Shown in pieces: positions 48 through 14,045 of a stretch of 25,588 nucleotides of DNA; position 1 is the stretch's first letter; each line of letters opens with the position of its first letter. Where the stretch lies: positions 1 to 25,588 of IMG/VR virus record IMGVR_UViG_3300044837_000012, one strand, 5' to 3'. A program made the position numbers and the translations under genes. A model generated the notes under the pieces. It had not been told where the DNA came from. It saw only the letters and a program-made list of their open reading frames with translations, and did not search any database. Source of the stretch: a virus.

Positions 48-907
48 CTCGCTGGTACCGCGCCTATGAGGGGACAGTGACCGACGCCAAGCTGGCGGAA
101 ACGGCCTTGATCGCTGAAACCTCGCGCTCGGTCGTGATCGCTACATGGCACGCCATTCTCGAAAGCTGCGCAATCACGCAAGGCAATGGGCGGTTTGAAA
201 CGACAGCCCGTCGCGTTGCCGCTTCGCTCGGGGAGCCGACCGCCGTCATTGAAAGGGTATTTGCAGGGCTCACCGAAGTAAAAATGACCGAAGGCGATGT
301 GGTGATAGCTTGGTCCAAACGCCAATTCGAGAGCGACATCAGCACGGAACGCTCACGAAAGCACCGTCAGGCGTCACGCAACGTTAACGCAACGTTGCAG
401 CAACAACACGCAACGCCCCCAGAGACAGATACAAAGACAAATACAGAAGCAGAAACAAAGAAGGAAGAACCCTCGCTTCGCTCGGTTGCGCTCACGGTCG
501 ATGTTTCACGTGCAACTTCGATCTGGCCAGCAAACTATCGCAACCATTTTTGGCAGGAATACCCCCGGAAGAAGGCGAAGAAAGCGGCCTTCAAGGCGCT
601 AGATCGCGTCTGCAAATCCGGCGAAGTTCCGTTTGACCGGCTGATGGCAGCGGTCAGGAAAATCCCAACGAACGAACCAGTTTTTATTCCGCACCCAGCG
701 ACGTGGTTGAACGGCGGGCGCTGGGACGACGAACAATCACCAGGAGAAACCGTCAATGCCCATGAAAAAACTGGAAGCATCATTGCCGCAGCCGACCGCC
801 TCGTCGCAAGGCTTGCAGACTTCGACCGACCGCCACCCGGTAGCGGAGGCGCAAGCCTACGCAGCGGAGAGGGCGCGAATGTTGTTCGGCTGCTATCGGA
901 AAGGTGA
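44..907 (+). CDS. Lambda-O-like phage replication initiator / helicase-loader-type protein
   Basis: 287 residues. The N-terminal ~110 residues open with WYRAYEGTVTDAKL and look like the winged-helix DNA-binding domain of phage replication proteins. A hydrophilic low-complexity linker follows (about residues 110-160, rich in Q, T, E and K). The C-terminal segment at about 168-232 carries the pattern FWQEYPRKKAKKAAFKAL ... PATWLNGGRWDDE, which is typical of the C-terminal part of phage replication O-like proteins. By analogy it would bind the phage origin and recruit the host helicase. The ATG overlaps the upstream stop (ATGA). The frame is also open upstream of position 44, so an earlier start cannot be excluded. 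The last ~50 codons overlap the next gene in another frame; the residues there (SIIAAADRLVARL ... NVVRLLSER) still look protein-like. Fold and role are inferred from sequence patterns only. Confidence 0.7.
   Translation: MTRWYRAYEGTVTDAKLAETALIAETSRSVVIATWHAILESCAITQGNGRFETTARRVAASLGEPTAVIERVFAGLTEVKMTEGDVVIAWSKRQFESDISTERSRKHRQASRNVNATLQQQHATPPETDTKTNTEAETKKEEPSLRSVALTVDVSRATSIWPANYRNHFWQEYPRKKAKKAAFKALDRVCKSGEVPFDRLMAAVRKIPTNEPVFIPHPATWLNGGRWDDEQSPGETVNAHEKTGSIIAAADRLVARLADFDRPPPGSGGASLRSGEGANVVRLLSER
376..470. other. Candidate replication origin inside the replication gene: three phased ACGCAACG repeats plus A-rich tract
   Basis: ACGCAACG occurs at 376-383, 387-394 and 408-415. Starts are 11 and 21 bases apart, so the copies lie on one face of the helix. 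Two copies extend to ACGCAACGTT. Directly downstream, 421-470 is strikingly A-rich (32 of 50 bases A or T) in an otherwise GC-rich region. In phage lambda the origin likewise lies inside gene O, as iterons followed by an AT-rich stretch in the linker between domains. Origin function here is inference. Confidence 0.45.
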
Positions 908-5373: not shown

Positions 5374-6930
5374 ATGACCCTCGACGAAATCCTTCTCCGG
5401 CTAGGCGCTCTACCGGAGAAGGAACAGGCTGAACTCAAGACCATCGCAATGAAGGCCACGGAGGGGCGGTACTTCGTTCCCAACATTGGCCCTCAAACGG
5501 AGGCGTACTTCAGCCCTGCCGACGAGGTGTTCTACGGAGGTGGGGCGGGGGGTGGTAAGTCAGCCCTCCTGTGCGGCCTCGCAATCGAGGAACACAAGAA
5601 GGCGATTATCTTCCGCCGTGAGTATCCGCAGATCAAGGGATTGGTGGACGAGGTTCACCGGCAGATCAAGACCCGCGACGGCTACAACGCTCAGGACAAG
5701 GTCTGGCGATTACCGAACGGACATGAACTGGAGTTCGGTTCGGTCCAGCACGAGGATGACAAGGAGAAGTATCAAGGCCGCGCCCATGATCTTAAGGGCT
5801 TCGACGAGATTACCCATTTCAGTGAAAGCCAATATCGCTTTCTGATTGGCTGGACGCGCTCCATCGACGAGGGCCAGCGGTGCCGGATTGTTGTTACAGG
5901 CAACCCTCCGATCTCGGCTGAGGGAACGTGGGTTATCAAATACTGGGGTCCATGGCTTGATCCCACATACCCAAAACCGGCAAAGCCAGGTGAGCTTCGC
6001 TGGTTTGCTGTTGTCGGCGGAAGGGACGTTGAGGTTGATGGCAGGGGCCCACACGTCATTGACGGCAAGGAGTTACTAGCCCGCTCGCGGACGTTTATCC
6101 CCGCCAGACTTGAGGACAATCCAGACCTGATGGCGACCGATTATGCGTCGGTCATCGAGGGGATGCAGGAGCCGCTTCGCACGATGATGCGCGAGGGCCG
6201 GTTTGATGTCGGGCAGTCTGACGCTGAGTATCAGGTTTGCCCGACAAGCTGGATTATCGCCGCACAGGACCGTTGGAAGCCTGACGGGTTCAAAGACTTC
6301 GGCATGACCGCCATGGCATTCGATCCTGCCGGTGGCGGGGAGGACGCGGCGGAACTGGCTTACAGGCATGGGGGCTGGTACGGCACGCTGATAACGGAAA
6401 AGGGATCGGGGACCGCAGATGGAAACGCGGCTGCAGCTACCATATTTCGTCATCGTCGGGACAATGCTCCTGTTGTGGTGGATGTTGGTGGTGGGTACGG
6501 CGGCGCGGTCACTCTTCGGCTGAAGGACAACGGCGTCTCCCATATCGGGTTCAACGGAGCCAATAGCTCCACCCACAAGACCATAGACGGGCAGCTAGGC
6601 TTTGCGAACAAACGCGCTGAGGCATGGTGGCGATTCCGGGAAGCCCTCAACCCTGACCAACAGGGCGGGTCTGCGGTGGCCTTGCCTGCCGATCCTGAAT
6701 TGAGAGCCGATCTGGCTGCGCCGACTTACACGGTCGGGACGCGCGGGATTGTGATTGAATCGAAGGACGATCTGCGGAAGCGGCTAGGACGATCTCCCGG
6801 CAAGGGCGATGCCTGCGTCATGTGCCTGTCGGAAGGCAATGCGGCCCAGCGAAAGATGCTCCGCCACACCAATGGGCCAGAGCAGCAGACTGCGAACATG
6901 GGCTATGCGAAATTGAAGGGTCGGCGGTGA
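5374..6930 (+). CDS. terL: Terminase large subunit
   Basis: 518 residues, a normal length for the family. It is the ATP-driven DNA-packaging motor and nuclease. The Walker A-type loop GGGAGGGKSA is at residues ~55-64, Walker B is in LKGFDEITHF (D144, E145), and a coupling motif VVTGNPP is at ~173-179. The nuclease half shows FDPAGGGEDAAEL (D317), VVVDVGGGYGG (D370) and SPGKGDACVM (D479), plausible acidic residues of the RNase-H-like active site. ATG 5374 follows the previous stop by 10 bases and has only a weak ribosome site, so coupling to the upstream gene is likely. The stop overlaps the next start (GTGA). Terminase upstream of portal differs from T7 gene order. Confidence 0.93.
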   Translation: MTLDEILLRLGALPEKEQAELKTIAMKATEGRYFVPNIGPQTEAYFSPADEVFYGGGAGGGKSALLCGLAIEEHKKAIIFRREYPQIKGLVDEVHRQIKTRDGYNAQDKVWRLPNGHELEFGSVQHEDDKEKYQGRAHDLKGFDEITHFSESQYRFLIGWTRSIDEGQRCRIVVTGNPPISAEGTWVIKYWGPWLDPTYPKPAKPGELRWFAVVGGRDVEVDGRGPHVIDGKELLARSRTFIPARLEDNPDLMATDYASVIEGMQEPLRTMMREGRFDVGQSDAEYQVCPTSWIIAAQDRWKPDGFKDFGMTAMAFDPAGGGEDAAELAYRHGGWYGTLITEKGSGTADGNAAAATIFRHRRDNAPVVVDVGGGYGGAVTLRLKDNGVSHIGFNGANSSTHKTIDGQLGFANKRAEAWWRFREALNPDQQGGSAVALPADPELRADLAAPTYTVGTRGIVIESKDDLRKRLGRSPGKGDACVMCLSEGNAAQRKMLRHTNGPEQQTANMGYAKLKGRR

Positions 6931-13400: not shown

Positions 13401-14045
13401 ATGGCAATCGACGCAACGCAAAAGCTGTCAATCTACAATCGCGCCCTCGGCGCGATGGGGGAGCGCAAGCTTGCCTCCGTGACGGAAGCGAGGGAGCCCC
13501 GGTATGTGTTGGATGATTTCTTCAGCGATGTGGTCGGTCAGTGTCTTGAGTTAGGAGACTGGAAGTTTGCCAGACGGTTTGTGAAAATCACCGCTTCTAC
13601 AAGTGTGGAGCCTGATTTCGGCTTTCAGTTTGTATTCCCGATACCGACTGATTTCCTCAAGATCAGACGCCTCGCGGAGGATGAGAACCTTGATATTCCG
13701 CTCCTGCGCTTTCGGGAGGAAAACGGCTTCTGGTATGCAAACGTAACTCCGATCTATCTGGAGTACGTCTCCAGCAGCGCCACCCTAGGCGGGTTGGATG
13801 GCGGGAGTTGGCCGCAACTCTTTGAGCAATACGTGGCAGCCCGTCTTGCCACTCTCTCTGCCCCCAGAATAACGGGCTGGAATGCTAATATCATCCAGTA
13901 CCTTGAGACGAAGGAAAAGAAGGCGAAAGCCGAAGCGATGGAGCTGAATGCGATCGGCACTCCTCCACAGGCTCAGATGCCCGGGTCGTGGGTCATGTCA
14001 AGAATGAGTGGGTCAAACCGCTCTCGCTGGGATCGCCGCTCTTGA
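13401..14045 (+). CDS. Tail tubular protein A-like (T7 gp11 position)
   Basis: 214 residues, close to T7 gp11 (196). It forms the adaptor ring between portal and nozzle. Features of the family are the N-terminal IYNRALGAMGERKLASVTEA, the turn LDDFFSDVVGQCLELGDWKF, FPIPTDFLKIRRL in the middle, YLEYVSSSATLGG, and the helix LFEQYVAARLATLSAPRITG. AAAGGGA lies about 11 bases before ATG 13401. The stop overlaps the start of tail tubular protein B as TTGA. Confidence 0.85.
   Translation: MAIDATQKLSIYNRALGAMGERKLASVTEAREPRYVLDDFFSDVVGQCLELGDWKFARRFVKITASTSVEPDFGFQFVFPIPTDFLKIRRLAEDENLDIPLLRFREENGFWYANVTPIYLEYVSSSATLGGLDGGSWPQLFEQYVAARLATLSAPRITGWNANIIQYLETKEKKAKAEAMELNAIGTPPQAQMPGSWVMSRMSGSNRSRWDRRS

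Follow-up and report, generated by a model that had tools for sequence, protein, structure and literature searches.

Phages that carry their replication origin inside the initiator gene are known beyond the lambdoid group. The lambdoid origin is described as occupying the central part of gene O and as made up of iterons and an AT-rich region (PMC7466680), and in lambda four iterons are annotated at codons 117–145 of the 299 codons of gene O, with an A-rich stretch after them. The families of DnaD/DnaT-type and replisome-organizer initiators have been defined by their proteins. In the unwinding region of bacterial oriC, DnaA-trios have been described (PMC10797057), so that there too, in that account, short repeats stand beside the last initiator box.

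In this study, we analysed a viral record of 25,588 bases, the whole of which is referred to below as the window. Judging from its sequence and that of its relatives, the segment 376–470 is very probably the replication origin of the phage, contained in its initiator gene and working like lambda ori. Computation brought out conservation at the DNA level, a defined box architecture, agreement in box type between two arrays, and modular C-termini. The features discussed are as follows.

44–907, + strand: initiator gene of 287 amino acids carrying the putative origin internally (open frame; matches to PHROG ‘replication initiation / primosomal protein’)
86–325, + strand: predicted winged-helix DNA-binding domain, residues 15–94 (AlphaFold2 blocks mostly at pLDDT 88–98; VIA-align)
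374–523, + strand: predicted disordered linker, residues 111–160 (mean block pLDDT 43–59)
376–415, no strand assigned: candidate initiator-box (iteron) array (repeats and box layout of relatives)
378–383 (+), 389–394 (+), 393–398 (−) and 410–415 (+): GCAACG half-sites, that at 393–398 forming an overlapping palindrome
416–420, no strand assigned: C cluster CCCCC between the last box and the tract (sequence; relatives by inspection)
421–470, + strand: A-rich CAGAYA-repeat tract (lowest duplex stability; codon bias in relatives)
524–739, + strand: C-terminal domain, residues 161–232 (blocks 161–230 at pLDDT 80–97)

Comparison with known systems

As in lambda ori, and likewise in the Stx phages P27 and 933W, boxes for the initiator, putative ones in the window, are followed midway through the initiator gene by an A-rich tract, and the position corresponds, the window array occupying codons 111–124 of 287 and the tract reaching to about codon 142. 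The units differ: lambda iterons are 18 bp long and about 20–24 bp apart, whereas the window has 6-bp half-sites 11 bp apart, arranged in a dyad, and, unlike lambda, a tract of CAGAYA repeats preceded by a C cluster. An O-type domain was sought with Pfam and gave no match up to E 0.1 in the window protein and none up to E 0.01 in ten other proteins of the two families described below; PHROG 345 (‘O-like’) matches L093 (residues 89–240) and L026 (100–249) but not the window protein. Thus the lambda-ori architecture claimed by the earlier note stands as regards layout and position, without extending to membership of the O family, and ‘lambda-like’ appears to hold for the way of working, as far as anatomy goes.

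The proteins resemble DnaD/DnaT-type and replisome-organizer initiators in that their PHROG and fold matches are ‘replication initiation protein’, ‘DnaD-like helicase loader’ and ‘primosomal protein’, in a predicted fold like that of the DnaD N-domain, and, in one relative (L157, family 2), in a C-terminal DnaT domain (PF17948); the box array and the conservation at the DNA level are what is added here. Compared with oriC as described in the DnaA-trio account, both the initiator and the repeat (CAGAYA, period 6) are different, and the likeness is one of analogy only. Titles and opening parts of abstracts on origins in phage initiator genes contained no description of this array.

The initiator and its predicted fold

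The initiator matches PHROG 270 (E 2e-16), PHROG 9474 (E 5e-16) and PHROG 9327, the first two placing it by sequence in a replication-initiator family; no Pfam family scored above the cut-off. The AlphaFold2 model (mean pLDDT 75) comprises the N-domain (residues 15–94), a long helix (90–116), disorder to about residue 160 and the C-domain (161–232). The earlier note had put the repeats in a low-complexity linker between two domains, and residues 111–160 are indeed predicted to be disordered between confidently predicted N- and C-domains.

By VIA-align, the N-domain superimposes on the DNA-binding domain of CRP (Z 8.9, 70 residues, 1.9 Å) and on the N-domain of DnaD (2vn2; Z 7.7, 77 residues, 3.2 Å), although a Z near 8 may reflect merely a common arrangement. 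Most of the closest folds among solved structures belong to transcription factors; matches among viral structures are, among others, to DUF1376, replisome-organizer and RepA-like proteins. By prediction, the protein has the winged-helix N-domain of phage DnaD-like and replisome-organizer initiators. Foldseek against the PDB returned nothing at E 0.001 or below, an absence that says little. A search for solved sequence relatives gave three matches (E 0.12–0.21), all to ribosomal protein S21, which look like effects of composition and were rejected.

The C-terminal domain probably contacts a helicase or a helicase loader. A gene at 756–1250 overlaps the end of the initiator gene and is a candidate loader, in the lambda O family the adjacent gene being that of a P-type helicase loader; it has only a sub-threshold match to DUF2826 and relatives in one (L043) of 26 loci searched, and no conserved loader gene was found downstream of the initiator across these 26 relatives. 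No helicase gene was recognised beside the window initiator, which counts against the origin reading. Farther along the window, 5374–25586 holds terminase, head–tail connector, major capsid and tail genes, marking a tailed phage, and after the tail genes an open frame of 1262 codons runs off the end.

A box array followed by an easily melted tract

The three repeats that the earlier note had seen, with starts 11 and 21 bases apart, are confirmed: ACGCAACG stands at 376–383, 387–394 and 408–415. A fourth copy lies at 13411, and this total of four in the window was matched by 3 of 100 dinucleotide shuffles, so that the count alone is modestly unusual and it is the clustering that stands out. Repeat 1 is read in a different phase from repeats 2 and 3, and the repeats are therefore not explained by a repeated peptide. 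The palindrome GCAACGTTGC (389–398) has the second repeat as one of its arms, and the true repeat unit, on this sequence evidence, is the half-site GCAACG/CGTTGC. Among the 37 such half-sites of the window, four fall within one 60-bp stretch from position 378; the next-densest 60-bp stretch has two. As literature text strings, the palindromes GCAACGTTGC and GTAACGTTAC retrieved only papers that were unrelated by their titles and abstract starts, and the tract string gave no match.

Protein searches yielded 14 distinct loci, the window included (family 1), two of them in Bosea genomes, with N-domains 52–68% identical to that of the window over 108 residues. In its full form, the array of these relatives consists of a 32-bp dyad, with two + boxes and two − boxes mirrored on one centre and 11 bp apart on each strand, and one adjacent + box. 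All five boxes are present in L002, L003, L005 and L025; the fourth is missing from L022, L023 and the window, where it would be expected at 404–409, and its absence from the window counts against the origin reading. Seven of the 14 loci (the window, L002, L003, L005, L022, L023 and L025) have their + boxes at the identical offsets of 11 and 21 bp. The boxes of L026, L029 and L030 are GTAACG- or GTGACG-like, and those of L024 are degenerate. Four viral records of 42–52 kb contain GCAACGTTGC once each, every time in the array, and in each of them, as in the window, the array is the densest box cluster. One record (G005, that of L022) has a second cluster, of three GCAACG half-sites, at 35409, about 750 bp upstream of its array; this is a possible operator or second binding site.

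The A-rich stretch noted after the repeats is borne out, positions 421–467 being 60% A and 64% A+T, against 41–42% A+T in 1–300 and 500–900. Nearest-neighbour energies place the starts of the least stable 45-mers of positions 1–1500 at 422–426, and those starting at 421–425 are among the lowest 0.04–0.1% of the window for stability. An AT-rich, easily melted tract thus adjoins the sites directly, as in an origin of the lambda type, and this CAGAYA tract is probably the unwinding element. Most relatives have, by inspection, CCC(C/T) at the position of the C cluster. At least two CAGA occur in 13/14 family-1 loci and in 65/66 loci of the more diverged family 2, the exceptions being L004 and L120, the latter with a tract of the AGAAGAG type. 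In L004, a CAGAYA tract at about 6407–6435 lies on the strand opposite to the boxes and encodes SVYVSVSD instead of DTDTE; we count this against the origin reading.

GC skew, which the earlier note had proposed as a check, gave a mixed result in the four long relatives: the cumulative minimum lies 0.5 kb from the array in one, a negligible minimum lies 1 kb away in another, and two do not fit. In these four records skew does not single out the array, which counts against the origin reading, and the window, which starts at the gene, is unusable for this purpose.

The site DNA is conserved beyond the protein

When codons were shuffled synonymously with the linker peptide held fixed and the half-sites were recounted, the linkers of the 14 family-1 loci were found to contain 43 GCAACG half-sites, against 9.6 expected and at most 19 in 2000 shuffles. 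Ten of the 14 loci are individually significant at p 0.004 or less; L024, L026, L029 and L030 failed, which counts against the origin reading, and with a looser box only L029 among these four reaches p 0.011. Relatives thus keep the repeats beyond what the protein requires, as the earlier note had suggested checking. Repeated sites in excess of the shuffle expectation therefore occur inside the initiator gene, their binding by the initiator being putative.

Codon choice points the same way. Identical residues are encoded by identical codons in 273 of 310 cases (88%) in the array and in 1019 of 2119 (48%) in the N-domain, none of whose 15-codon blocks exceeds 60% codon identity. This comparison covers 32 pairs among nine loci, pairs more than 85% identical being omitted, as were L004, L024, L026, L029 and L030, whose arrays are different or offered no anchor in the shared motif. 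It is the opposite of a protein kept while its repeats vary freely, the finding that had been named as fatal to an origin here. The site DNA is conserved independently of the peptide, as expected of an origin of the lambda type.

The tracts of the relatives show a codon bias of the form GAN-NCA. The tracts of 13 of the 14 family-1 loci use ACA for Thr in 32/32 cases (26/165 in the rest of the genes), GAT for Asp in 13/13 (70/173), GCA for Ala in 9/9 (84/438) and TCA for Ser in 7/7 (20/237); in family 2, the figures are 190/192 for ACA and 187/189 for GAT. The pattern used for these counts missed L004, L099, L161 and L164.

Searches with DNA alone and arrays outside the frame

A search of viral contigs with GCAACGNNNNNGCAACGTTGC returned 63 stretches. 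The family-1 N-domain is encoded by twenty at E <1e-20, the match lying inside the gene, and by a further three (L063, L070 and L078) at E <1e-6; two (L056 and L032) resemble other replication proteins by eye, and the remainder are other genes or noncoding. In L057 and L060, the array is read in a frame other than that of the other family-1 members listed. In L113, L158 and L165, the initiator frame ends before the array, the boxes and tract persist, and the frames following the array showed no C-terminal domain. L158 and L165 are sisters in the tree: the first 45 bases of array and tract start are identical, the N-domains are 81% identical and the sequence further downstream is 62% identical. 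L110 resembles these three loci and may be a plain frameshift, a point against the origin reading.

The string ACGCCCYAGATACAGATACAG, which joins a box, CCC and the GATACA tract, occurs in 53 stretches of viral contigs, many of them near-copies of each other and hence not 53 independent cases. All 53 have further boxes upstream, mainly GTAACG in 43 and GTGACG in 10, and 51 lie behind the W..RQ end of an initiator domain, the exceptions being L202 and L211 (the contig of L110). The tract is in the same phase in all 53, from which we conclude that the acidic peptide is probably selected too; this constancy counts against the origin reading.

A second family, box types and C-terminal modules

Through L063 and L070 we reached 140 viral loci with a diverged N-domain, the best 80 of which make up family 2; 69 of these have distinct linkers, and 65 are long enough for the shuffle test. 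By inspection, their layout is boxes of the type GTAACG, GCAACG or GTGACG, then CCC(C/T), then GATACA-type repeats. The 65 members contain 172 GTAACG half-sites, against 18.5 expected and a maximum of 33 in 500 shuffles.

Family 2 has a second array inside the region coding for the N-domain, at about codons 36–46 and about 200 bp upstream of the first. In 32 of 33 rows, all but L143, both arrays have boxes of the same type. On a tree of these 33 rows, built without the codons of the second array, the box type of the linker changes five times; with only two independent pairs on well-supported branches, the agreement is consistent with linked box types but does not amount to a significant test.

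Behind the array, five kinds of C-terminal part occur in the 14 family-1 loci, with no likeness between kinds detectable by blastp: the window with L004; L002; L003 with L018, L019, L023 and L024; L005 with L022 and L025; and L026 with L029 and L030. Replaceable C-terminal modules behind a constant N-domain and array are expected if N-domain and array travel together.

Two named phages have the layout: Acinetobacter phage vB_AbaS_Silvergun and Pseudomonas phage YMC11/07/P54_PAE_BP (L194), in which a DnaB-like helicase gene follows that of the initiator. In the more distant Cyanophage Cy-LDV1 (L196), the boxes are weaker, there is no clear tract, and the next gene encodes a replicative helicase. 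These helicase neighbours favour the origin reading. Among 397 genomes of the order to which the Bosea genome belongs, nine have N-domain matches; box-like linker repeats of several types (GCAACG, GTGACG, GTAACG and GCGAACGCAA included) are visible by inspection in eight of these, and L179 has none. The GCGAACGCAA-type repeats stand ahead of the GATACA tract in the related initiators L176 and L181 and are likely another box type. A two-sequence profile of family 2 matched in three of 398 genomes of the phylum, one match being the family-1 gene of the Bosea genome.

Discussion

We infer binding of the array by the window protein, unwinding of the tract, recruitment of a helicase and origin function, in the following manner. 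The winged-helix N-domain would bind the GCAACG half-sites, probably as dimers on the 32-bp dyad, with the boxes 11 bp apart on one face of the helix. The assembled complex would strain the adjoining A-rich CAGAYA tract, which would then open, and the C-terminal domain, tethered by a disordered linker that is itself encoded by the putative origin DNA, would bring in the helicase or its loader.

That the array is an operator only, through which the protein tunes its own transcription while the origin lies elsewhere, is unlikely. Repressors too bind box dyads through winged-helix proteins, the transcription factors among the nearest folds fit this idea, and so does the upstream second array of family 2 within the same gene; however, the boxes sit 330–370 bp inside the gene and not at its start, and an operator needs no low-stability tract with strict DNA conservation, whereas such a tract makes up the second part of an origin of the lambda type. 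Moreover, N-domain, array and tract stay together despite loss of the C-terminal part. A conserved boundary that aids recombination of C-terminal modules without being an origin would account for the five unrelated modules behind the array in 14 loci, but it would need neither a dyad, nor a fixed 11-bp spacing, nor agreement in box type with the array in the N-domain, and we give it very little credence; module swaps just behind the array are predicted by an initiator–origin pair bound to travel together.

It is equally improbable that the DNA likeness reflects nothing but codon usage or selection for the linker peptide. The constant phase of the tract and the recurrence of DTDTE-like acidic linkers in these proteins speak for such selection; against it, shuffles with the peptide fixed lose most boxes, codons are fixed in array and tract where those of the N-domain vary, and arrays are read in different frames and persist past stop codons. 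Together, these observations led us to reject this explanation. An RNA hairpin element in the transcript is hardly to be expected either: the window segment folds better than its shuffles (z −2.6), but L002, L005 and L158 give z −1.7, −0.4 and −1.5 with differing structures, none of them consistent over the four segments, and direct-repeat boxes that switch type together suit a protein site and not pairing.

Taking the origin reading of the window together with the two families, we put forward, as an evenly balanced conjecture, that they belong to an extensive class of phage replicators not recognised so far, in which a single portable cassette is made up of N-domain, box array and CAGAYA tract, the letters of the boxes are a compatibility code between initiator and origin, helicase-loading modules vary or are lacking, and the repetitive linkers are largely a read-out of origin DNA. 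If so, GCAACG, GTAACG, GTGACG and probably others would be letters of this code, and linkers such as NATLQ, CNVAVT and DTDTDTE in many phage proteins would largely reflect origin DNA. The signature of boxes, C cluster and CAGAYA tract would place the origin in phages known from metagenomes only and without a mapped origin, and would predict initiator specificity in many phages. Odd repetitive linker peptides would be explained as DNA sites, a caution against reading them purely as protein features. Natural switches in box type come with their own N-domains, and a direct test of initiator–origin specificity is therefore possible.

Two other kinds of cluster came to light in the same searches. 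One, apparently noncoding, consists of TGCAACG direct repeats, mostly followed by CCGTGTTGCAGTGTTGCG, and is alike by eye in L031, L033, L036, L037, L040, L042, L046, L050, L051, L055, L059, L066, L073, L082 and L088; that of L031 had no near match in phage or plasmid collections. In the other, a GCAACGTTGC cluster adjoins TTATCCACA, which resembles a DnaA box, in L035 (4513–4533) and L076 (9191–9222), and this arrangement is possibly another kind of origin.
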